A DNA stretch of 64,000 nucleotides from the NCBI RefSeq assembly GCF_010682065.1, contig NZ_JAAGWG010000001.1, positions 1 through 64,000 of the forward strand, given 5' to 3'. Position numbers and translations under genes: made by a program. This document shows, piece after piece, positions 7,671 to 16,819 of this stretch. The notes under the pieces were generated by a model. That model saw only the letters and a program-made list of their open reading frames with translations, had not been told where the DNA came from and did no database searches. This DNA is from Blastococcus saxobsidens. GTDB taxonomy: Bacteria; Actinomycetota; Actinomycetes; Mycobacteriales; Geodermatophilaceae. Positions within the stretch are counted from its first letter, which is position 1, and each line of letters begins with the position of its first letter.

Positions 7671-8267
7671 TCAGACCAGCGCGCGGACCGTCTCCACGGC
7701 GGCGACGACGGCGAACACGAGGAACAGGCCGGCGGCGACCCGGCGGATGAGCGGGATCGGCAGCCGGTCGGCCAGCTTCTTGCCGAGGAAGACCGCGAGG
7801 CCGGAGACGACGAGCAGCGCGGCCCAGGCGCCGACGAACACCGACAGCGGCTCCTCGTAGCGGGCGGCCAGGCCGGCGGTGGCCAGCTGCGAGAGGTCGC
7901 CCCACTCGGCGGCGAACAGCACTCCGAAGGAGATGGCTGCCGCGCGCAGGAACGACGTCTGCTCGCGGCGGTCCGCGGCCGTCCCGCCGTCCTCGGCCTC
8001 CCCCGTGGCGCTGCGCCAGAGGATTCCCGCGCCGACCAGGAACAGCAGCGCCACGACGCCGGTGACCAGCGCCTCGGGCAGCAACGACAGCAGCGAGCCG
8101 GCGGTGACGGCGATGGCGACCTGCAGGCCGAACGCGGTGCCGACGCCGACGAACACCGGCAGCGGGGGGAAGCGGGTGGCGAGCACCAGGCTGGCGAAGA
8201 GCGTCTTGTCCGGCAGCTCCACCGGGAGCACCAGGACGAACGCGGCCAGCACGACCGACCAGATCAC
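7671..8267 (-). CDS. GDT1/TMEM165 (UPF0016) family cation transporter
   Basis: A membrane protein of about 198 residues with six predicted helices in two inverted halves. The two signature motifs of the family are present: ELPDKT in the first half and EWGDLS in the second. A charged loop (RSATGEAEDGGTAADRREQT) separates them. Family members export Mn2+ or exchange Ca2+/Mn2+ for protons across the membrane; Mn2+ export is the likeliest role in bacteria. I start at GTG 8267, which puts the GGAGG at 8278-8282 (read on the minus strand) at normal spacing; the longer GTG at 8291 would precede that site. I found no convincing Mn2+ riboswitch in the short leader. Confidence 0.85.
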   Translation of the reverse strand: MIWSVVLAAFVLVLPVELPDKTLFASLVLATRFPPLPVFVGVGTAFGLQVAIAVTAGSLLSLLPEALVTGVVALLFLVGAGILWRSATGEAEDGGTAADRREQTSFLRAAAISFGVLFAAEWGDLSQLATAGLAARYEEPLSVFVGAWAALLVVSGLAVFLGKKLADRLPIPLIRRVAAGLFLVFAVVAAVETVRALV

Positions 8268-8369
8268 GTCGAACTCTCCTCCGCGGCTCACTGCCGGGCG
8301 GGGCTCGGGCAGGCGACCTCTCGGCGACCACGGTAGCGGGCGGGGTGCCCGGTGTTCGCGACCGGCGGG

Positions 8370-9845
8370 TCAGACGGGCTGGCGCGGCCGGATCACGCCG
8401 GGCCGGCGTGCTGCCTTCACCCGGTACATCGCGGCGTCCGAGCTGGCCAGTGCGCTGTCGGCGGTGTCGTCGGGCCCGCAGAGGGCGACGCCGATGCTGA
8501 TCCCCACCGCGTGCTCGGCGCCACCGGAGCGGCGCAGCGGCCGGTCGAAGGCGGCGGTGATCCGGTCGGCGATGACCTGGGCGGCCTGCTCGGAACCCAC
8601 CTCGGGGCAGAGGACGACGAACTCGTCGCCGCCGATCCGCGCCACCGTGTCCCCCGGCCGGACGGCCGCGGCCAGCCGGCGCGCCGCCTCGACGAGCACC
8701 TCGTCGCCCGCGGCGTGACCGGCCGTGTCGTTGACCGGCTTGAACCCGTCCAGGTCGCAGTAGAGGACCGCCATCGGCCGCTGGGCCCGCTCGGCAGCGG
8801 CCAGGCTCTGGTCGAGCCGGTCCAGCAGCAGGTTGCGGTTGGGCAGCCCGGTCAGGGGGTCGTGCAGCGCCGCCTCGCGGAGGGCGGCCTCCAGCGCCCG
8901 CTGCTCGGTGACGTCGGAGATGGTGACGACGATGCCGAGCATGGTGCCGTCGTCGTCGTGCACCTGGACGCCCGAGCCGGACACCCGGCGCAGCGGTCGG
9001 CCGGGGAGGGCGATGGCCATCTCGGCGCCGTCCACGCGGCCCTCGCTGTAGACCCGGCTGAACGGGACGTCGTCGTAGGCGAGGGGCGTGCCGTCGACGT
9101 CGGTGAGCCCGAAGGTGCTCGGGATGTCCTCGACGGCGACCGTCGGGTCGGCGTCCAGGCCGTGCCAGGCGCGGGCGGCGGCGTTGAAGAGCGTGACCCG
9201 CCCCTCGGCGTCCCCGCCGACGACGCCGACGGGCAGCACCTCGAGCAGGGAGCGGGTGAACGCCGCCGAGCGGGCGAGCTCCTGGTGCGCTCGCGCCGTC
9301 TCGGCCCGGGCGAGCTGGCTGGCCGCGGCGAGGTCGGCCAGCTGGCGGGCCTGCTGGGCGGCGCGGACCAGCGAGGCGACGGCGACGGCGACGTCGGCGA
9401 GCCGGCTGCGCTCCTCGTCGGTGAAGGCGTGCGGCTGGTCGTCGAAGACGCAGATGGCGGCGAGCGCGACGTCGTCCACCACGACCGGGACGGTGCCGAA
9501 GGCGCGCATCCGGCCGCGTCGGCCGTCGACCCACGGGCTCCCGGCGAATCCGGGCACCAGGCTCAGGTCGTCGCAGGTCTGCACGCCGGTCCCACCGTCG
9601 AGCACCGTCGCGACGATGGAGCCCTCCCGCGGCCAGGAGGCGCCACGGAAGCCGTGGACGGCCATCACGCGCATGATGGCCGTGTCCATGGTGATCACCG
9701 AGGCGCAGCGCATCCCGATGACGGCCGCGGCGACCCGGACCAGCCCGTCGAGCGCGGGGTCGGCGTCCATGACCGGCAGCTCCGTGTCGGGGGCGAGGGC
9801 AGCCGGACGGCCGAGCACCGGTGCGGGCTCAGCCGTGCTGGTCAT
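8370..9845 (-). CDS. Diguanylate cyclase with GAF and PAS sensor domains
   Basis: A 491-residue cytosolic protein: GAF domain about 30-165, a coiled linker about 165-195, PAS domain about 197-312 (with the PAC-like ending VTISDVTEQ), and a GGDEF domain about 325-488. The active site is a canonical GGDEF at 405-409. The product-inhibition site RPGD lies at 396-399, exactly five residues upstream. It should make c-di-GMP from two GTP under GAF/PAS control and be feedback-inhibited. A GGAGGG lies ten bases before the ATG at 9845. There are no transmembrane segments, so the signal is likely intracellular or diffusible. Confidence 0.93.
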   Translation of the reverse strand: MTSTAEPAPVLGRPAALAPDTELPVMDADPALDGLVRVAAAVIGMRCASVITMDTAIMRVMAVHGFRGASWPREGSIVATVLDGGTGVQTCDDLSLVPGFAGSPWVDGRRGRMRAFGTVPVVVDDVALAAICVFDDQPHAFTDEERSRLADVAVAVASLVRAAQQARQLADLAAASQLARAETARAHQELARSAAFTRSLLEVLPVGVVGGDAEGRVTLFNAAARAWHGLDADPTVAVEDIPSTFGLTDVDGTPLAYDDVPFSRVYSEGRVDGAEMAIALPGRPLRRVSGSGVQVHDDDGTMLGIVVTISDVTEQRALEAALREAALHDPLTGLPNRNLLLDRLDQSLAAAERAQRPMAVLYCDLDGFKPVNDTAGHAAGDEVLVEAARRLAAAVRPGDTVARIGGDEFVVLCPEVGSEQAAQVIADRITAAFDRPLRRSGGAEHAVGISIGVALCGPDDTADSALASSDAAMYRVKAARRPGVIRPRQPV

Positions 9846-9997
9846 CCTGGGATCCCTCCGCGTACGGCCGGTGACTCCGATCCGTTCAGTTTCGCAACGG
9901 CGCGGCGGGACGCGCTATTGAGGCTCGCCGGAGCACTTCCCCCGCACGGGTGGTGCCGGCCGCTCCGGCCGCACGCCGGACCTGCCGGGCAGGCCGC

Positions 9998-11197
9998 TCA
10001 CCCCCACAGCGGGGGTGCCTCCGCGGTGCTGACCGGGTAGGCGTCCTCCGCGGCCGCGGTGGCCGCGCGGAGCACCTCCTTGACGGGCAGGTCCCGCTCC
10101 CGGGCGAGGGCCGCGACGTCCTCGAACTCGACGCTGACGTTGGCCAACCGCCCGCCGGAGACGGCCAGCTTCACGCCGACCTGACCGCCGAGGACGTCCA
10201 CGGTCGCGTGCGCCCGCTCCAGGGCCACCTTGCCGACCTCCACCACCCGCAGGCCGATGGTGGAGGTGGTGGCGAAGACCGCCGCCTGCACCGCGGCCAC
10301 GGCATCGGGCCGGCAGAGCGCCGACAGCGTGTGCGCCGGCCGGCCCTTCTTCATCAGGATCGGCGTGAGCCACGCGTCGGAGGCGCCGGCGGCGAACAGT
10401 GCGTCCAGCACGCCCGGCCACAGCCGCGGGTCGAGGTCGTCGACGTTGGTCTCCAGCACCACCGGGCGGGCGGGGGCGGGGGCGTCCGGCTCACCGAGGA
10501 CCAGCCGGACGACGTTGGGCAGTTCCTCGGGGTCGCGGCCCCCGGCGCCGGTGCCCACCCGCTCCGGGCGCAGCGCCGGCAACGCCGTCCACTCGTCGAC
10601 CCGTGCGGCCAGCAGCGCGGCCCCGGTGGGCGTGCACATCTCCGCGGGCACCGGCCCGGCGAGCACCGGTACGCCGGTCAGCAGCTCGAGCACGGCCGGC
10701 CCGGGGATCGGGACCACGCCGTGCGAGCTCCGGGCCGAGCCGCTGCCCAGGGCGACGGGTGAGGCGGTGAGCCGGTCGAGCGCCAGGTACTCCAGCCCGG
10801 CGACGACGCCCACCACGTCGGCGAGCGCGTCGAGCGCACCGACCTCGTGGAAGTGCACCTGGTCGGGGTCGACCCGGTGCACCCGGCCCTCGGCGACGGC
10901 CAGCCGTTCGAACACCGCGAGGGCGCCGTCGCGCACGGGCGGGGGCAGGGCGGAGTCCTCGAGCAGCGCCCGGACGTCGGCCCAGCTGCGGTGCACGTCC
11001 GAGGGCGGGGCGTGCACGTGCACGCGGGTGGCGCCCAGCCCGTGGCGGGTCACCGGCTCGGCGACCAGGTGGACGTGTTCCACGTGCAACGCCGCGACGG
11101 CCTCGGCCGGCACGTCCAGCGGCACCCCGGCGTCCACCAGCGTGCCGAGCAGCATGTCGCCCGACGCGCCGGCCGCCAGGTCCAGCCAGCCGATCAT
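9998..11197 (-). CDS. larC: LarC, nickel insertion protein for the nickel-pincer nucleotide
   Basis: A full-length 399-residue LarC. The N-terminus IGWLDLAAGASGDMLLGTLVDAG, the HFHEVGALDALADVVG motif, SSHGVVPIPGPAVLELL, and the C-terminal LETNVDDLDPRLWP and ILMKKGRPAHTLSAL blocks are all characteristic. LarC is a CTP-dependent cyclometallase that puts nickel into the pincer cofactor used by lactate racemase and related LarA-type enzymes. Unlike Lactobacillus, the gene is not split by a programmed frameshift. A GGAGGGGG lies just before the ATG at 11197, and the gap to the upstream GGDEF-LarB-like gene is 18 bases, so the two are co-transcribed. No LarE or LarA is in this window. Confidence 0.92.
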   Translation of the reverse strand: MIGWLDLAAGASGDMLLGTLVDAGVPLDVPAEAVAALHVEHVHLVAEPVTRHGLGATRVHVHAPPSDVHRSWADVRALLEDSALPPPVRDGALAVFERLAVAEGRVHRVDPDQVHFHEVGALDALADVVGVVAGLEYLALDRLTASPVALGSGSARSSHGVVPIPGPAVLELLTGVPVLAGPVPAEMCTPTGAALLAARVDEWTALPALRPERVGTGAGGRDPEELPNVVRLVLGEPDAPAPARPVVLETNVDDLDPRLWPGVLDALFAAGASDAWLTPILMKKGRPAHTLSALCRPDAVAAVQAAVFATTSTIGLRVVEVGKVALERAHATVDVLGGQVGVKLAVSGGRLANVSVEFEDVAALARERDLPVKEVLRAATAAAEDAYPVSTAEAPPLWG

Positions 11198-11215
11198 GCT
11201 GCGCCCCCTCCGGGA

Positions 11216-13996
11216 CTACCGGCGGGCGCTCCTCCGCGCCACGCGGGCGGCGAAGACCCCGGCGGAGTAGCCGTTGTCGATGTTGCTCACCGTCATGCCG
11301 GGGGTGGCCGCGGTCAGCATGGTCATCAGCGCGCCGAGGCCGCCGAACGCGCTGGGCTGCCCGGTGGAGGTGGGCACCGCGACGACCGGCACGTCGGTGA
11401 GGGAGCCGATCACCGTCGCCAGGGAGGCGTCCATCCCGGCGACGACGACCAGGCAGTCGACGTCGTCGAACAGCGACCGGTCCGACAGCAGGGTGCGGAC
11501 GCGGCCGCCGGCCACGTCGTCCATGCGGACCACCTCGGCCCCGGCCACGCGGGCGACGAAGGCGGTCTCGGCGGCCACCGGTGCGTCGGCGCCACCGGCG
11601 CAGAGCACGGTGATGCGGCCGGTGGGCTCGGGCACCGGGCCCACCGCGGCGGCCGAGGCCGCGGCGTCCATGGTCGTGTACGCGTCGTGCTCCGTGGCCA
11701 GGGCGACCAGGGTCTCCGGGGTCGCGCGCAGCACGAGCGCCGGGCGGTCGGGGTGCTCGGCGCGGGCCGCGCGGACCAGCGCCAGCACCTGCTCGGTCGT
11801 GCGCCCGGTGGCCCAGACCACCTCGGGCTCCACGGCGGCCGGCGTGCCGGCCAGCGGCTGCGCGGCGGGGGACTCCTCGACGGCGGTCTGACCGGCGGAC
11901 TGCTCGACGGCGGACTGCTCGACGGCGGACTGCTCGACGGCGGACACCGGCACCGGGCCCAGCAGCGGCTCATCGGGCCGGTCGGTGCCGAGCGGCGGGT
12001 GCGGGGTCAGCAGGGCGGCGAAGCCCGGCGTCTCCTCGCGCACGGCGGTGACCGCCCGGTGGACGTCGTTCCCCGGAGCAGCCTGCACCTCCGCCACGAC
12101 ATCGGCGTCCGGCGTCGGATCCGGGCTGTCGTCTGCCGTGTCGGCAGCTGCCGGCGGGGGCCCGAAGAGCACGTCGAGCGGGCTCGCGGCGGCCCGGGTC
12201 TGCGTGACGGCCGACAGCCGCACGACCCGGTCCCGCCCGCTGCGCTTGGCGTCGTAGAGGACGCCGTCGGCCGCGGCGAACAGGGTCTTGCGGTCGTCGC
12301 CGCGGGTGGCCGACGCGATGCCGACGCTGATCGTGACCGGCACGTCGAGCCCGAGCTCGGACCACGAGTAGCGGGCCACCGAGGCCCGGATGCGCTCCAG
12401 AGCGCGTTCGGCCTGCTCGGCGGTGGTCTCCGGCAGCAGGATCACGAACTCGTCCCCGGCCCAGCGGCACACCTCGTCGGTGTCGCGGACCCCGGCCACC
12501 AGCAGCTCGCCGACCGCCCGCAGGACGGCGTCGCCGCCGGGGTGGCCGATGGCGTCGTTGATCGACTTGAACCGGTCCACGTCCACGACGGCGAGGGCCG
12601 GGACGTCGCCGGCGGCCAGCAGGCCGTCGAGCCGGGCCTCGGCGTAACGCCGGTTGGGCAGGTGGGTGAGCGGGTCCTCGTAGGCCTGCCGGCGCAGCTG
12701 GCCGGCGGCGCGCTCGGTCTCCAGCAGGCTCTTGCGGCGGCCGAACAGCTCCACCCAGCGGGTGCGCCGCTCGTCGACGCGGTCCAGCTCGTCGGAGAGG
12801 TAGGCCTGCAGGTAGGGCAGCGCGCGGTCGGCGTCGTTGAGGTCGGCGTGCAGGGTGCACAGCTCCCGCAGCGCGGCGCGGCGGACCCGGGGCAGCCCGT
12901 GCTCGGTGGCCAGGTCCAGCGCGGCGACGAGGTGCTCGTCGCCGGTGCGGCCGTCGCCGTTGCGGCGCAGCGCCCGGCCCAGCGCCAGCTGCGCCGAGGC
13001 CAGCCGGGCGCGGTCGGCCGACGCCGAGGTCAGCCGGACGGCGGCGCGCAGCGGGCCGACCGCCGCGGCCTGCTCACCCATGCCGACCAGGGCCCAGCCG
13101 TGCACGATCTGCGCGGGCACGATGCCGGCCGAGTCGGGCGGCAGCTGGACCAGGGCCTGCTCGGCCAGCCGGCGGGCCTCGGCGAAGTAGGGCGCCGCGG
13201 ACTCCGGCACGCCGTCGTCGAGCAGTCCCTCGCCCAGCTCGGCGCACAGCTCGCCCAGCCGGGTGGCGGCGACGGCGACGAGCACGTCGGGGTCCGCGCC
13301 GTCGCGGGCCAGCACGTCGGGGTCGGTCGCCGCGGCGAGGGCCGTCTCGTGCGCCCGCCGCTGGTAGTCCAGCGCGAGTGGCATGAGCTCCAGGTCGGCC
13401 AGCACGCCGGCCAGCGTGCCCAGCGTGTCGACCAGCAGGACGCCCGGCGGGAGCGTCGGGTCGAGCAGGCTCGCGGCCTCCACGGCCTCGTCCATGGCGG
13501 CGTCGATCCGCCGGGACAGCAGCTCGATGCGGGCGTGCCGGGCGAGGCCGGCGGCGCGCTGCAGGTCGTCGTCGGCGGCGTCGAAGGCGGCCTTCGCCGA
13601 GCGGACCAGCGCGATGGCCAGCGCCGCGCGCGAGGCCGACTCCGAGCGGGCGTCGGCTCCGCCGCCGGTGCCGTCGAGCAGCTCGGCGACGCCGGCGTGC
13701 AGGTCCAGGGCGGGTTCGGCGGAGGACTCGGGGGAGACCGGGTCGCCCACCAGCGTGAAGCCGGCGACCCGCAGGCGGCGGACGAGCAGCTCGGCGCGGA
13801 GCGTGTCGGCCCAGGCCCGGCCCAGCGACATCGGGGCGCCCTCGACCGCGTCGGCGCCCGGAACGGCCGCGACGTAGGGGGACGGGTCCCGCTCCACACC
13901 TGCGAGCAGCTGCTCGGCGTCGTCGAGCTGCCAGTTGCTCAAGGCGGCGGTCACCCGGTGATGCAGGGCTCCCGGTGGCACGAGCGCACTGTGCAT
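11216..13996 (-). CDS. TPR-like - GGDEF - LarB-like fusion protein
   Basis: One uninterrupted 926-residue frame. Residues 1-430 are Ala/Leu-rich helices resembling a TPR solenoid. Residues 440-592 form a GGDEF domain (DPLTHLPNRR, DVDRFKSINDA) with the active-site variant AGDEF at 513-517 and an intact RDTD inhibition site at 504-507. Residues about 595-721 are a Pro/Ala/acidic linker with three VEQSA repeats. Residues 722-926 are a LarB/PurE-type domain (EPEVVWATGRTTEQ, CAGGADAPVAAETAF, VVAGMDASLATVIGSL, VSNIDNGYSAGVFAARV). LarB carboxylates and hydrolyses NaAD in pincer synthesis. Here the usual NSCA segment reads TAAT at 895-898, so the catalytic Cys appears absent. I could not find an in-frame stop between the domains. 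The exact start (ATG 13996, or GTG at M/V15) is uncertain. Confidence 0.85.
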   Translation of the reverse strand: MHSALVPPGALHHRVTAALSNWQLDDAEQLLAGVERDPSPYVAAVPGADAVEGAPMSLGRAWADTLRAELLVRRLRVAGFTLVGDPVSPESSAEPALDLHAGVAELLDGTGGGADARSESASRAALAIALVRSAKAAFDAADDDLQRAAGLARHARIELLSRRIDAAMDEAVEAASLLDPTLPPGVLLVDTLGTLAGVLADLELMPLALDYQRRAHETALAAATDPDVLARDGADPDVLVAVAATRLGELCAELGEGLLDDGVPESAAPYFAEARRLAEQALVQLPPDSAGIVPAQIVHGWALVGMGEQAAAVGPLRAAVRLTSASADRARLASAQLALGRALRRNGDGRTGDEHLVAALDLATEHGLPRVRRAALRELCTLHADLNDADRALPYLQAYLSDELDRVDERRTRWVELFGRRKSLLETERAAGQLRRQAYEDPLTHLPNRRYAEARLDGLLAAGDVPALAVVDVDRFKSINDAIGHPGGDAVLRAVGELLVAGVRDTDEVCRWAGDEFVILLPETTAEQAERALERIRASVARYSWSELGLDVPVTISVGIASATRGDDRKTLFAAADGVLYDAKRSGRDRVVRLSAVTQTRAAASPLDVLFGPPPAAADTADDSPDPTPDADVVAEVQAAPGNDVHRAVTAVREETPGFAALLTPHPPLGTDRPDEPLLGPVPVSAVEQSAVEQSAVEQSAGQTAVEESPAAQPLAGTPAAVEPEVVWATGRTTEQVLALVRAARAEHPDRPALVLRATPETLVALATEHDAYTTMDAAASAAAVGPVPEPTGRITVLCAGGADAPVAAETAFVARVAGAEVVRMDDVAGGRVRTLLSDRSLFDDVDCLVVVAGMDASLATVIGSLTDVPVVAVPTSTGQPSAFGGLGALMTMLTAATPGMTVSNIDNGYSAGVFAARVARRSARR
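11899..11943. repeat. Three 15-bp tandem repeats inside the fusion linker
   Basis: Unit ACTGCTCGACGGCGG occurs three times head to tail and encodes three copies of the pentapeptide VEQSA in the linker before the LarB-like domain. It is a small in-frame tandem expansion. Confidence 0.9.
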
Positions 13997-14082
13997 GCCG
14001 GTACCGACAGTGTCGAGAACCGGCCCCGGAACGCGCCGTCCCCTGTCCGTCGCGTCCCTCCCGTCCCACGCGTGCGGGAAGC

Positions 14083-15765
14083 TCACGCGCCGGCTCCGCG
14101 CTTCCGCGCGGCGGCGCGGAGGACGTCGGGCGGGGCGTGCGCGCGGACCCGGTTGCGCCCGCCGCGCTTGGCGGAGAACAGGTGCAGGTCGGCGGTGTCG
14201 AACAGCGCCCGCCAGCCGACCACGGGGCTGGGCTGCCCGGCGGGGACGGCCGGGGCGGTGGCCACCCCGATGCTGACGGTCACGTCGGCGGAGAGCTCCA
14301 GCTCGGTCCAGTCGGCCGCGGCGACGGCGGAGCGCAGCCGCTCCATCACGACCACGGCCTGCGCCTCGGTGGCCGTGGGCAGCACCACGAGGAACTCGTC
14401 GCCGGCCCAGCGGTACACCTCGTCGCCGTTGCGGCTGTGCTCCCGCAGCAGGTCGGCGACCCGGCGGAGGACGGCGTCCCCGTGGGTGTGCGAGGCGGCG
14501 TCGTTGACCTCCTTGAACCGGTCGACGTCGACCACGGCCAGCGACAGCGGCTCCTCGCCGAGCCGCAGGGCGCCCAGCCGGCGCTCGGCGCTGCGCCGGT
14601 TGCCGAGCCCGGTGAGCGGGTCCTCCAGGGCGTGCCGGCGCAGCATCGCGGCCTGGCGCTCGGCCTCCCGCAGCCGGCTGCGGCGGACGAACATCTCCGC
14701 CCACATCTCCCGGCCGCGGGCGTGCGCCCGGCCGGTGTCGGAGCGGTAGGCCTCCAGCCAGTGCAGCGCCTCCGCGGTGCGGCCCAGGTCGGCGTTGTCC
14801 TGGCCCAGCTCGAGCAGGCTCTGCCGGTAGCGGCGCCGGTCGCCGGTGGAGGCGAACGCGCCCGCGGCGTCGACCAGCAGCCCGATGGCCTCCTCGCCGA
14901 CGGCGACGTCGCCGTCCCGGCGGGACAGCGCGCGCAGCAGCCGGGCCAGCGCCAGGTCGGTGTAGCCGCGCAGCCAGACCCCGCCGTCCCGCTGCACCGA
15001 GCGGCGGACCCGGCGCAGCGGCCCGAGCGCGCCGTCCAGGTCGCCGCTGACCACCAGGGCCCACCCGTGCACGACGTCGAGCAGGTCGCCCTCGGCCGGC
15101 TCCGGCTCCCACGGCAGCTCGCGGGCGGCGGTCGCGCAGGCGATCGCCTCGGTGGCCAGCTCGGCGGCGCGCTCGGTGTCGCCGCGGCGGCGCAGCGTCT
15201 GGGCCAGCTCCGCGTGCTGCCGCGCCCCGAGCAGCAGCAGCCGGCCGTGGTCGCCGACGTCGGGCAGCCCGGCGGCCACCTGGTGCCCGCGGACCGCGTG
15301 CGCGACGGCGAGCTCCTCCAGGTCCAGGCCGCAGAGGGTGAGCGACAGCCAGCGGTGGGCCTGCAGCAGCGCGCGCGAGGGCTGCGCCTGGCCGTCGGTG
15401 AGCAGGCTCGCGTCGACGGCGAGCAGCATCGCGTGGTCGAAGTGGTCGGCGGTCATCTCGACGTGCGCGAGGTAGGCCATGAGCAGCGCCGTCTCCGACG
15501 ACACCGGGCAGCGGTCCAGCAGGTCGCGGGCGGCGGTGACCTCGTCGGCGGTGGTGTCGGGGTCGCGGTCGAGCGTGGCCCGGCGGGCGGAGAGCGCGTG
15601 CCGCCAGGCGGTCCAGGTCGGCTCGCAGCCGTCGGCGAAGGTGTCGGCGGACTCGTCGAGCAGGGCGAGGAACGGCTCCGGGTCCTCGACGTGGCTGGCG
15701 TCGAGGTACCGCCACAGCGCCGCCTGGAGGACTCCGGGGGCGACGCGGGCCGGGCCGGGGGTCAC
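14083..15765 (-). CDS. TPR-like GGDEF protein (paralogue of the fusion's first half)
   Basis: A 560-residue cytosolic protein. Residues 1-360 are helical repeats with TPR character (HGWALVVSGDLDGALGPLRR, AEALHWLEAYRSD). Residues 370-540 form a GGDEF domain with VVDVDRFKEVNDA, active-site AGDEF at 454-458 and RNGD inhibition site at 445-448. It closely resembles the protein at 11216-13996 in architecture and wording (both have EVxRWAGDEF), so the two probably arose by duplication. GGAGG sits a few bases before the GTG at 15765. It is first in the minus-strand series GGDEF, GGDEF-LarB-like, LarC, with an 86-base gap to the next gene. AGDEF variants can be active cyclases; activity here is likely but not shown. 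Confidence 0.88.
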   Translation of the reverse strand: MTPGPARVAPGVLQAALWRYLDASHVEDPEPFLALLDESADTFADGCEPTWTAWRHALSARRATLDRDPDTTADEVTAARDLLDRCPVSSETALLMAYLAHVEMTADHFDHAMLLAVDASLLTDGQAQPSRALLQAHRWLSLTLCGLDLEELAVAHAVRGHQVAAGLPDVGDHGRLLLLGARQHAELAQTLRRRGDTERAAELATEAIACATAARELPWEPEPAEGDLLDVVHGWALVVSGDLDGALGPLRRVRRSVQRDGGVWLRGYTDLALARLLRALSRRDGDVAVGEEAIGLLVDAAGAFASTGDRRRYRQSLLELGQDNADLGRTAEALHWLEAYRSDTGRAHARGREMWAEMFVRRSRLREAERQAAMLRRHALEDPLTGLGNRRSAERRLGALRLGEEPLSLAVVDVDRFKEVNDAASHTHGDAVLRRVADLLREHSRNGDEVYRWAGDEFLVVLPTATEAQAVVVMERLRSAVAAADWTELELSADVTVSIGVATAPAVPAGQPSPVVGWRALFDTADLHLFSAKRGGRNRVRAHAPPDVLRAAARKRGAGA

Positions 15766-15859
15766 CTGTCCTCCACTCGGGTTCGGCGGCCAGCCGGCCG
15801 GTCCTGCCGTAGTGAGGCCGATCCTCCCGGGCGGGACGTGCGCCTCGCCCCGTCGGCAC

Positions 15860-15865
15860 TACCCT
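15860..15865 (+). promoter_or_regulatory. Putative -10 (TACCCT), leaderless pheA
   Basis: TACCCT ends six bases before the pheA ATG at 15872, leaving no room for a ribosome binding site. Confidence 0.5.
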
Positions 15866-15871
15866 CGTCGG

Positions 15872-16819
15872 ATGCCCGGGATGCCACCCAGTACACCTCC
15901 GACGCGATTCGTGTACCTGGGACCGGAGGGTACCTTCACCGAAGCGGCCCTGAGCAGGGCGATTCCGTCGACGGAGGGATCGCGCGCTCCCCGGCCGAGC
16001 GTGGCCGCCGCGCTGTCCGCCGTCCGATCGGGGGAGGCGGACGCCGCCCTGGTCCCGTTCGAGAACTCCGTCGAGGGCTCGGTGCCCGCGACCATGGACG
16101 GCCTGGCCGACGGCGACCCGCTGGTGATCACCCGCGAGGTGTTCCTCGAGGTGGCCTTCGTGCTCGCCGTGCGCCCCGGCACCGCGCTGGCCGACGTCCG
16201 CTCGGTGACCAGCCACCCGCACGCCCTGGCCCAGACCGCCGGCCGGCTGGCCGAGCTCCTGCCCGGCGTCACCCCGATGCCCGCGACGTCGACGGCGGCG
16301 GCCGCGGCGTCGGTGGCCGCGGGCGAGGTCGACGCCGCGGTGTGCGCGGCGATCGCGGCGTCCCGCTACGGGCTGGAGGCGCTGGCCGACGACGTCGCCG
16401 ACCACGCCGGCGCGGTCACCCGGTTCGTGCTGGTCGCCCGCCCCGGCCCGCTGCCCGCGCCCACCGGCAACGACAAGACGTCGCTGGTCGCCGTCGTCGC
16501 CGACCGGACCGGCGCCCTGCTGGACCTGCTGAGCGAGTTCGCCGTCCGGGGGATCAGCCTGACCCGGATCGAGTCGCGCCCCACCCGGCAGCGGCTCGGC
16601 GCCTACTCGTTCTCCCTCGACTGCGAGGGGCACGTGGCCGAGCCGCGGGTGGGGGAGGCGCTGTCGGCCCTGCACCGGATGTGCGAGGACCTGCGCTTCC
16701 TGGGGTCCTATCCGCGGGAGGACGGCCGGGAGAACCGGCCGGTGCCGGCGGAGTCCGCCGACGCCGCCTTCGCCGAGGCCGGGGACTGGCTGACCCGCCT
16801 CCGCTCCGGCGCCGTCTGA
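15872..16819 (+). CDS. pheA: Prephenate dehydratase
   Basis: A 315-residue monofunctional prephenate dehydratase, which converts prephenate to phenylpyruvate in phenylalanine synthesis. The PDT domain runs from FVYLGPEGTFTEAAL (about 13-27) through ALVPFENSVEGSV to the catalytic TRF motif (AVTRFVLVA). A C-terminal ACT domain (about 210-290) with TGALLDLLSEFAVRGISLTRIESRP carries the ESRP phenylalanine-binding motif, so feedback inhibition by Phe is expected. The ATG at 15872 is likely leaderless; a second ATG lies nine bases later. It is divergent from the GGDEF gene and convergent with panE. Confidence 0.94.
   Translation: MPGMPPSTPPTRFVYLGPEGTFTEAALSRAIPSTEGSRAPRPSVAAALSAVRSGEADAALVPFENSVEGSVPATMDGLADGDPLVITREVFLEVAFVLAVRPGTALADVRSVTSHPHALAQTAGRLAELLPGVTPMPATSTAAAAASVAAGEVDAAVCAAIAASRYGLEALADDVADHAGAVTRFVLVARPGPLPAPTGNDKTSLVAVVADRTGALLDLLSEFAVRGISLTRIESRPTRQRLGAYSFSLDCEGHVAEPRVGEALSALHRMCEDLRFLGSYPREDGRENRPVPAESADAAFAEAGDWLTRLRSGAV

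Follow-up and report, generated by a model that had tools for sequence, protein, structure and literature searches.

LarB is the nicotinic acid adenine dinucleotide (NaAD) carboxylase/hydrolase of nickel-pincer nucleotide (NPN) synthesis and an oligomer with a nucleotide pocket; its reaction reportedly involves a cysteinyl-pyridine intermediate (Rankin 2021), and its catalytic cysteine is presumably the residue at position 221, in agreement with the numbering of PDB entry 7mj0. GGDEF domains are those of cyclic di-GMP (c-di-GMP) signalling, and the cyclase VCA0965 of Vibrio cholerae, which carries an AGDEF motif, is reported to make c-di-GMP (PMC3974145). Here we describe a gene that joins the two. 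It lies at 11216-13996 on the minus strand of a 64,000-nucleotide stretch of Blastococcus saxobsidens (assembly GCF_010682065.1, contig NZ_JAAGWG010000001.1, positions 1 to 64,000; the whole stretch is called the window below), and it encodes tetratricopeptide repeat (TPR)-like helices, a GGDEF domain, a low-complexity linker and a degenerate LarB-type domain. On balance we favour the reading that the gene encodes a soluble diguanylate cyclase whose input domain is of TPR type and whose C-terminal pseudoenzyme, derived from larB, serves as a regulatory or assembly module. The preliminary description of the locus had called such an architecture undescribed, and our searches of the open-access literature, by title or start of the abstract, likewise found no description of a GGDEF-LarB protein. 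Nothing was found on Cys221 of LarB in the open-access literature search, the open-access literature on Geodermatophilaceae and c-di-GMP or diguanylate cyclases concerns RsiG and not such a fusion, and the open-access sources on pseudoenzymes and inactive-domain GGDEF proteins, on Lar distribution and on LarB and NaAD hold nothing on such a fusion in the portions available; those that bring GGDEF together with fusion, nicotinamide and PurE are unrelated.

Architecture of the fusion gene

The open reading frame (ORF) runs uninterrupted from its ATG through 926 codons to the stop, and its translation was aligned in a set of 30 full-length members that includes the window protein. Residues 1-430 (12707-13996) form an N-terminal helical TPR-like region, for which a TPR_MalT match was obtained in 19 and a TPR_12 match in 13 of the 30 members, while a Pfam profile search returned no TPR match in the window protein itself. 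The GGDEF domain (residues 438-590, 12227-12685) reaches 130.1 bits against a Pfam cut-off of 23.8 (PF00990, E 8.5e-38), and all 19 positions that were checked are invariant in all 30 members. Its catalytic signature is intact as the AGDEF variant (residues 513-517, 12446-12460), identical throughout the alignment, as are R504 and D507 of the RxxD inhibitory-site motif (residues 504-507, 12476-12487); with these residues, the domain is probably an active diguanylate cyclase.

The linker that follows (residues 600-722, 11831-12199) consists of 123 residues with SAVEQ repeats and shows near-even rates of change at the three codon positions; it measures 64-156 residues in the 30 aligned orthologues, in all of which its frame is uninterrupted. 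Behind it, residues 723-926 (11219-11830) make up a PurE-like domain of LarB type, matched by the NCBIfam LarB profile NF033503 over residues 724-921 with 157.9 bits, below the equivalog cut-off of 175, and by the Pfam AIRC profile over residues 845-921 (E 1.1e-9); fusion-type matches just over the NF033503 cut-off occur in two genomes (G507 and G510). A phmmer comparison with PDB 7mj0 gave an E-value of 5.5e-31, and each of the two PDB sequences matched by the domain is represented by 18 chains in three entries. Synthesis of a separate LarB from an internal start was considered and set aside: an ATG lies within 40 codons before the LarB domain in only two of the 30 members and no conserved start is found at the border, which makes a separate LarB start unlikely. 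ORF, Pfam and NCBIfam matches and orthologues together bear out the preliminary description in what it had said of the layout, namely one frame with TPR-like helices, a GGDEF domain with AGDEF at 513-517 and an intact RxxD site, a linker and a LarB/PurE-type domain. What it had overlooked is that the LarB domain of the window lacks the catalytic cysteine.

Loss of catalytic residues in the LarB domain

Positions of the LarB domain are given by reference to L. plantarum LarB (numbering of PDB 7mj0), and 84 distinct fused domains were compared with 69 distinct stand-alone LarBs. Contig-edge fragments (L047-L049, L081, L090, L099, L102, L117, L146, L147) and duplicates (L040, L041, L043) were left out of this comparison, broken relatives (L198-L200) likewise stand outside the counts, and the domains L025, L032 and L034 were excluded from alignment A2. 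Cys221 is kept in none of the 84 fused domains and in all 69 stand-alone LarBs. Its place is taken by Ala in 61 fusions, Ser in 11, Thr in six, Gly in four and Pro in two, the window having Ala897 (codon 11306-11308); those omitted fragments and duplicates that cover the position have no Cys either, except L040, which duplicates the intact LarB of L039.

The loss extends well beyond the cysteine. Ser127 and Tyr204 are kept in none of the 84 fusions, Arg159 and Gly156 in one each, Gly205 in six, Thr126 in seven and His158 in ten, and three conserved residues immediately preceding the LarB domain (R, R and G) are missing. Kept in all 84, on the other hand, are Pro199, Thr200, Ser201, Glu134, Asp231 and Gly233, with Asp128 in 82. 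Several positions have moreover become fixed to new residues, as in Lys57 to Arg (83 of 84), Gly156 to Arg (76), Tyr204 to Gln (67) and Gly181 to Ala (84), and this fixation at active-site positions favours re-use of the domain over decay. From these replacements we infer that the LarB domain of the fusion is a catalytically dead pseudoenzyme derived from larB.

The fusion persists without the nickel-pincer pathway

Having noted a larC gene 18 bases downstream, the preliminary description had proposed that NPN synthesis, or a derived reaction on a nicotinate nucleotide, may be tied to c-di-GMP through the LarB domain. The gene itself is as was claimed: larC, encoding a nickel insertase of full length, lies at 9998-11197 on the minus strand, exceeds the cut-offs of TIGR00299 and NF052512, begins 18 bases after the fusion stop, and is the sole PF01969 match and the only larC found in the window genome, which is 91% complete. 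The coupling of NPN synthesis found no support, since Cys221 is lost and most other active-site positions are changed, and since the window genome has a second, intact LarB (246.4 bits) beside larE elsewhere. The weaker suggestion, that some nicotinate nucleotide is handled by the domain, may still hold. The link to larC varies among the 74 named fusion loci: larC follows at a distance of no more than 200 bases in 25 of them and is absent from the flank (up to 5 kb) in 33.

The distribution of the pathway points the same way. Of 36 genomes of the family Geodermatophilaceae, 19 have an intact LarB together with a LarE, each over cut-off; the other 17 have the fusion with neither of them (pathway-less genomes below), 12 of these also being without larC; in G006 the two parts of the fusion sit on two contig ends. 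A wider set of 112 family genomes was tallied by hand from genome tables, matches with E < 1e-60 being counted as intact LarB and weaker ones as fusion type, and frames and residues were read in the individually examined loci. By this count, intact LarB is present in 73 genomes, 72 of which have LarE, larC was found in 82, and a fusion-type LarB match occurs in 102, a figure partly inferred from the number of matches. Of the 39 genomes with a fusion-type LarB and no LarE match, G517 also carries an intact LarB, located at a contig edge; the remaining 38 have the fusion type only, and 34 of these are at least 95% complete. Coupling to NPN synthesis was accordingly rejected as the principal explanation, and a LarB/AIRC domain match in Geodermatophilaceae should not by itself be taken as evidence of NPN synthesis.

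Some observations on the pathway itself arose alongside. LarA (PF09861) was found in two of the 36 family genomes and LarB, LarC and LarE together in 18. Genomes with larB, larC and larE but no larA make up about 15% of genomes according to a recent paper (mBio 2024, PMC11796402), and the window genome, in which no LarA match was found, is therefore an example of them. It is possible that an NPN-using protein other than LarA exists in the family, as that source proposes for cyanobacteria (PMC11796402). A full-length larC is kept in five Blastococcus genomes that lack intact LarB and LarE (G014, G013, G003, G006 and G002; loci L010, L011, L013, L048 and L082); among its conserved residues, His107, His117, Glu118, Asp123, Asp127, Lys283, Lys284 and others are each altered in no fewer than three of these genomes. 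Contrary to expectation, larC of pathway-less Blastococcus does not look neutral, its codon positions showing constraint (ratio 0.37 against 0.36), and judging by the changed residues these five may perhaps encode a pseudo-LarC as well.

Selection on the fused LarB domain

Purifying selection continues to act on the fused LarB domain, in contrast to the linker that precedes it. As simple codon-position rates, changes at positions 1, 2 and 3 in the pathway-less genomes amount to 0.188, 0.147 and 0.366 in the LarB domain, compared with 0.361, 0.399 and 0.473 in the linker and 0.083, 0.064 and 0.241 in the GGDEF domain. Among four closely related pathway-less genomes, positions 1+2 relative to position 3 give a ratio of 0.20 in the LarB core, 0.24 in the N-terminal part of the domain and 0.82 in the linker, and the core is 90.5% identical versus 52% for the linker. 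In 12 genomes with both copies, the core identity is 67% in the fused copy versus 93% in the intact paralogue, and the N-terminal part stands at 73% in both. This difference in the core, together with the codon constraint that remains, indicates that constraint on the catalytic core has been eased and not removed.

Distribution and integrity of the frame

A search of 60 relatives gave collinear fusion matches in most Geodermatophilaceae genomes. Named loci were obtained by a scan of one genome per species, of which the best 80 of 90 relatives were used, and the tabulation of GGDEF-LarB fusions that the preliminary description had suggested gave both domains in one ORF in 74 of these 80, the remaining six beginning at a contig edge. 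The loci come from Blastococcus, Modestobacter, Geodermatophilus, Klenkia, Goekera and Trujillonella, and all but two carry Geodermatophilaceae names, the exceptions being labelled Frankiales and Bacillus sp. AZ43 (unverified organism). The latter (L102) has a fused-type LarB end 77% identical to that of the window and is probably mislabelled. Outside the family, 40 stand-alone LarB loci were read at the level of the class, and no GGDEF-LarB fusion was among them; these came from 39 of the 79 extra-family genomes that gave a match at E 1e-25 in a search of 394, and the range beyond the class is covered by the scan of the best 80 of 90 relatives only. Within the family, nine genomes of three genera (g6, g9, g11) have intact LarB only.

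The preliminary description had named two findings that would tell against a genuine fusion, a frameshift in the linker and relatives with the domains as separate genes. No frameshift is present in the window, although the LarB part lies in another frame in two relatives (G470 and G508); stand-alone relatives do exist, but they fall outside the fusion clade, and those that were read are LarBs with the cysteine.

Alternative explanations

A simpler account would regard the LarB domain as a mere tail, a redundant larB joined by chance and slowly decaying behind a working TPR-GGDEF protein. Several observations suit it and at the same time weigh against a pseudoenzyme with a function. At least one core residue is missing in ten of the 30 aligned domains and 12 to 22 are missing in three (L025, L032 and L034), LarB scores are only 60.9-68.8 bits in G005, G015, G016 and G024, and these missing residues and low scores fit slow decay as well. 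At least three relatives have a broken frame, in which sequencing error and decay are not told apart: in G470 (L198) and G508 (L200) the LarB part is out of frame with the GGDEF part through a shift inside the linker, and in G455 (L199) an in-frame stop lies within the TPR-GGDEF part, these three having been chosen for reading for their short open frames in one- or two-contig genomes. G497, a 99% complete genome from a genus that carries the fusion, gave no LarB match at E 1e-12 and may have lost the fusion. To these points must be added that the selection test is a simple comparison of codon positions, that Ser127 is replaced by Ala or Thr in four of the 69 stand-alone LarBs too, and that newly conserved sites in the N-terminal part were dropped as candidate gains (identity there equals that of the intact paralogue). 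The catalytic core is, besides, relaxed compared with the intact paralogue of the same genomes, and the adjacent TPR-GGDEF paralogue does without a LarB tail. We nevertheless regard a mere tail as unlikely, as a fusion-type match occurs in nearly all family genomes of the wider set, codon positions 1 and 2 are far more conserved than those of the gene's linker, and residues are kept or newly fixed across 84 distinct fusions.

If the domain does have a function, that function might still be catalytic, in the form of a different nucleotide reaction without cysteine chemistry that is coupled to c-di-GMP. The core motifs with Asp128 and Glu134 are kept in a domain under selection, and the newly fixed Arg57, Arg156 and Gln204 lie in the active site; yet no known catalytic set is recognised, and the position of Cys221 accepts five different residues among the fusions, positions 126, 127 and 159 being variable too, so that we consider such a reaction improbable. 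Even harder to credit is a part for the fusion in NPN synthesis, such as that of a regulatory subunit for LarB or LarC. The closeness of larC in the window and in a third of the named loci speaks for it, but 38 of 112 genomes retain a fusion-type LarB although both LarE and intact LarB are missing, larC too is missing from most of the 17 pathway-less genomes, and Cys221 is lost in each fusion read. That assembly or a frameshift joined two genes by artefact has next to no probability. Contigs do end at or near the linker in G006 and G007, and the frame changes in G470 and G508; the continuous frame across the orthologues, intact also in one-contig genomes such as G008, G018, G021 and G024, leads us to reject a frameshift or assembly error in the window and refutes the artefact for the family.

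Gene neighbourhood

Upstream of the fusion, at 14083-15765 on the minus strand and separated from it by 86 bases, lies a TPR-GGDEF paralogue (PF00990) without LarB. A TPR-GGDEF gene, together with pheA, is found upstream in 71 of the 80 named loci, with a gap of 77-175 bases between it and the fusion in the 71 measured, and the other nine loci have little or no upstream sequence. In the window, 8370-15765 holds three GGDEF genes in 7.4 kb (GAF-PAS-GGDEF, the fusion and TPR-GGDEF), and the genome as a whole gives 34 GGDEF matches. One of these recurs with identical coordinates (15427-15885) and score on contigs G000:C28 and G000:C74, which suggests a duplicated contig start in the assembly. A gene for a GDT1-type cation/proton antiporter (7671-8291) stands near the fusion in 60 of the 80 named loci, some of them without larC.

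Evolutionary origin

In a quick tree of 100 LarB sequences with SH-aLRT (approximate likelihood ratio test) supports, the fusions form one clade (100) on a long stem (1.18), which groups with stand-alone larB genes located upstream of larC, from other families as well as from G030 and G032 of the same family (fork support 89); the larE-linked LarBs of the family make up a separate clade (99). G010 (L060) and G034 (L061) have a larE-larB pair of yet another LarB lineage, accompanied by larC in G034, which looks like a replacement by horizontal transfer. When a gene tree built from the TPR-GGDEF part is made to represent the species tree, no fewer than seven changes of pathway state are needed, six of them forced by well-supported branches, and most of these changes were presumably losses.

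We infer the following order of steps. Ancestrally, an intact stand-alone larB probably lay in front of larC, an arrangement found in other lineages today. A distant second larB, mostly beside larE, would have carried NPN synthesis and made the old larB redundant; in the stem of most Geodermatophilaceae the old gene would then have been joined in frame to a TPR-GGDEF gene, and the fused copy would have lost the cysteine and most other catalytic positions and kept the residues that define the fold. Later the NPN pathway would have been lost repeatedly, with the fusion mostly retained. The states before and after are both extant: a few genera of the family, like other families, have the intact larB-larC pair, and the greater part of the family has the fused dead form.

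Proposed function and comparison with known systems

The pseudo-LarB domain may act on the cyclase through LarB-type oligomerisation or through nucleotide binding in a re-shaped pocket; in either way, with or without a ligand, it could set the pairing of GGDEF domains and with it the amount of c-di-GMP made. A more specific version, which we put forward tentatively and think rather unlikely in this particular form, is that the dead LarB binds a nicotinate or other nucleotide (NaAD, nicotinic acid mononucleotide or NAD), with Arg57 and Arg156 in the re-shaped pocket, and thereby switches the cyclase. If so, c-di-GMP would report the NAD/nicotinate state of the cell, and most of a bacterial family would have made a second-messenger sensor out of a biosynthetic enzyme. 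Here, at any rate, a cofactor enzyme has seemingly become a non-catalytic part of a c-di-GMP protein, and the fusion family lends itself to testing what a pseudo-LarB can sense.

Set beside the described systems, the fusion shares with TPR-GGDEF diguanylate cyclases (PF00990), one of which adjoins it, the complete GGDEF domain with active-site and RxxD motifs, and differs from them in the added C-terminal pseudo-LarB domain and in AGDEF in place of GGDEF. Its resemblance to PurE, the aminoimidazole ribonucleotide (AIR) carboxylase (PF00731), is that of a distant homologue confined to the core (38.4 bits), and against TIGR01162 it scores 26.8 bits where the cut-off is 149.6; a separate short match elsewhere in the window genome may be purE. 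To LarB proper (NF033503, PDB 7mj0) residues 724-921 are homologous over both the PurE-like core and the part that precedes it, whereas the fusions have no Cys221, have lost Ser127, Arg159 and Tyr204 entirely or almost so and His158 and Gly205 mostly, are without the R, R and G before the domain, and are sited behind a GGDEF domain with no consistent tie to larE.

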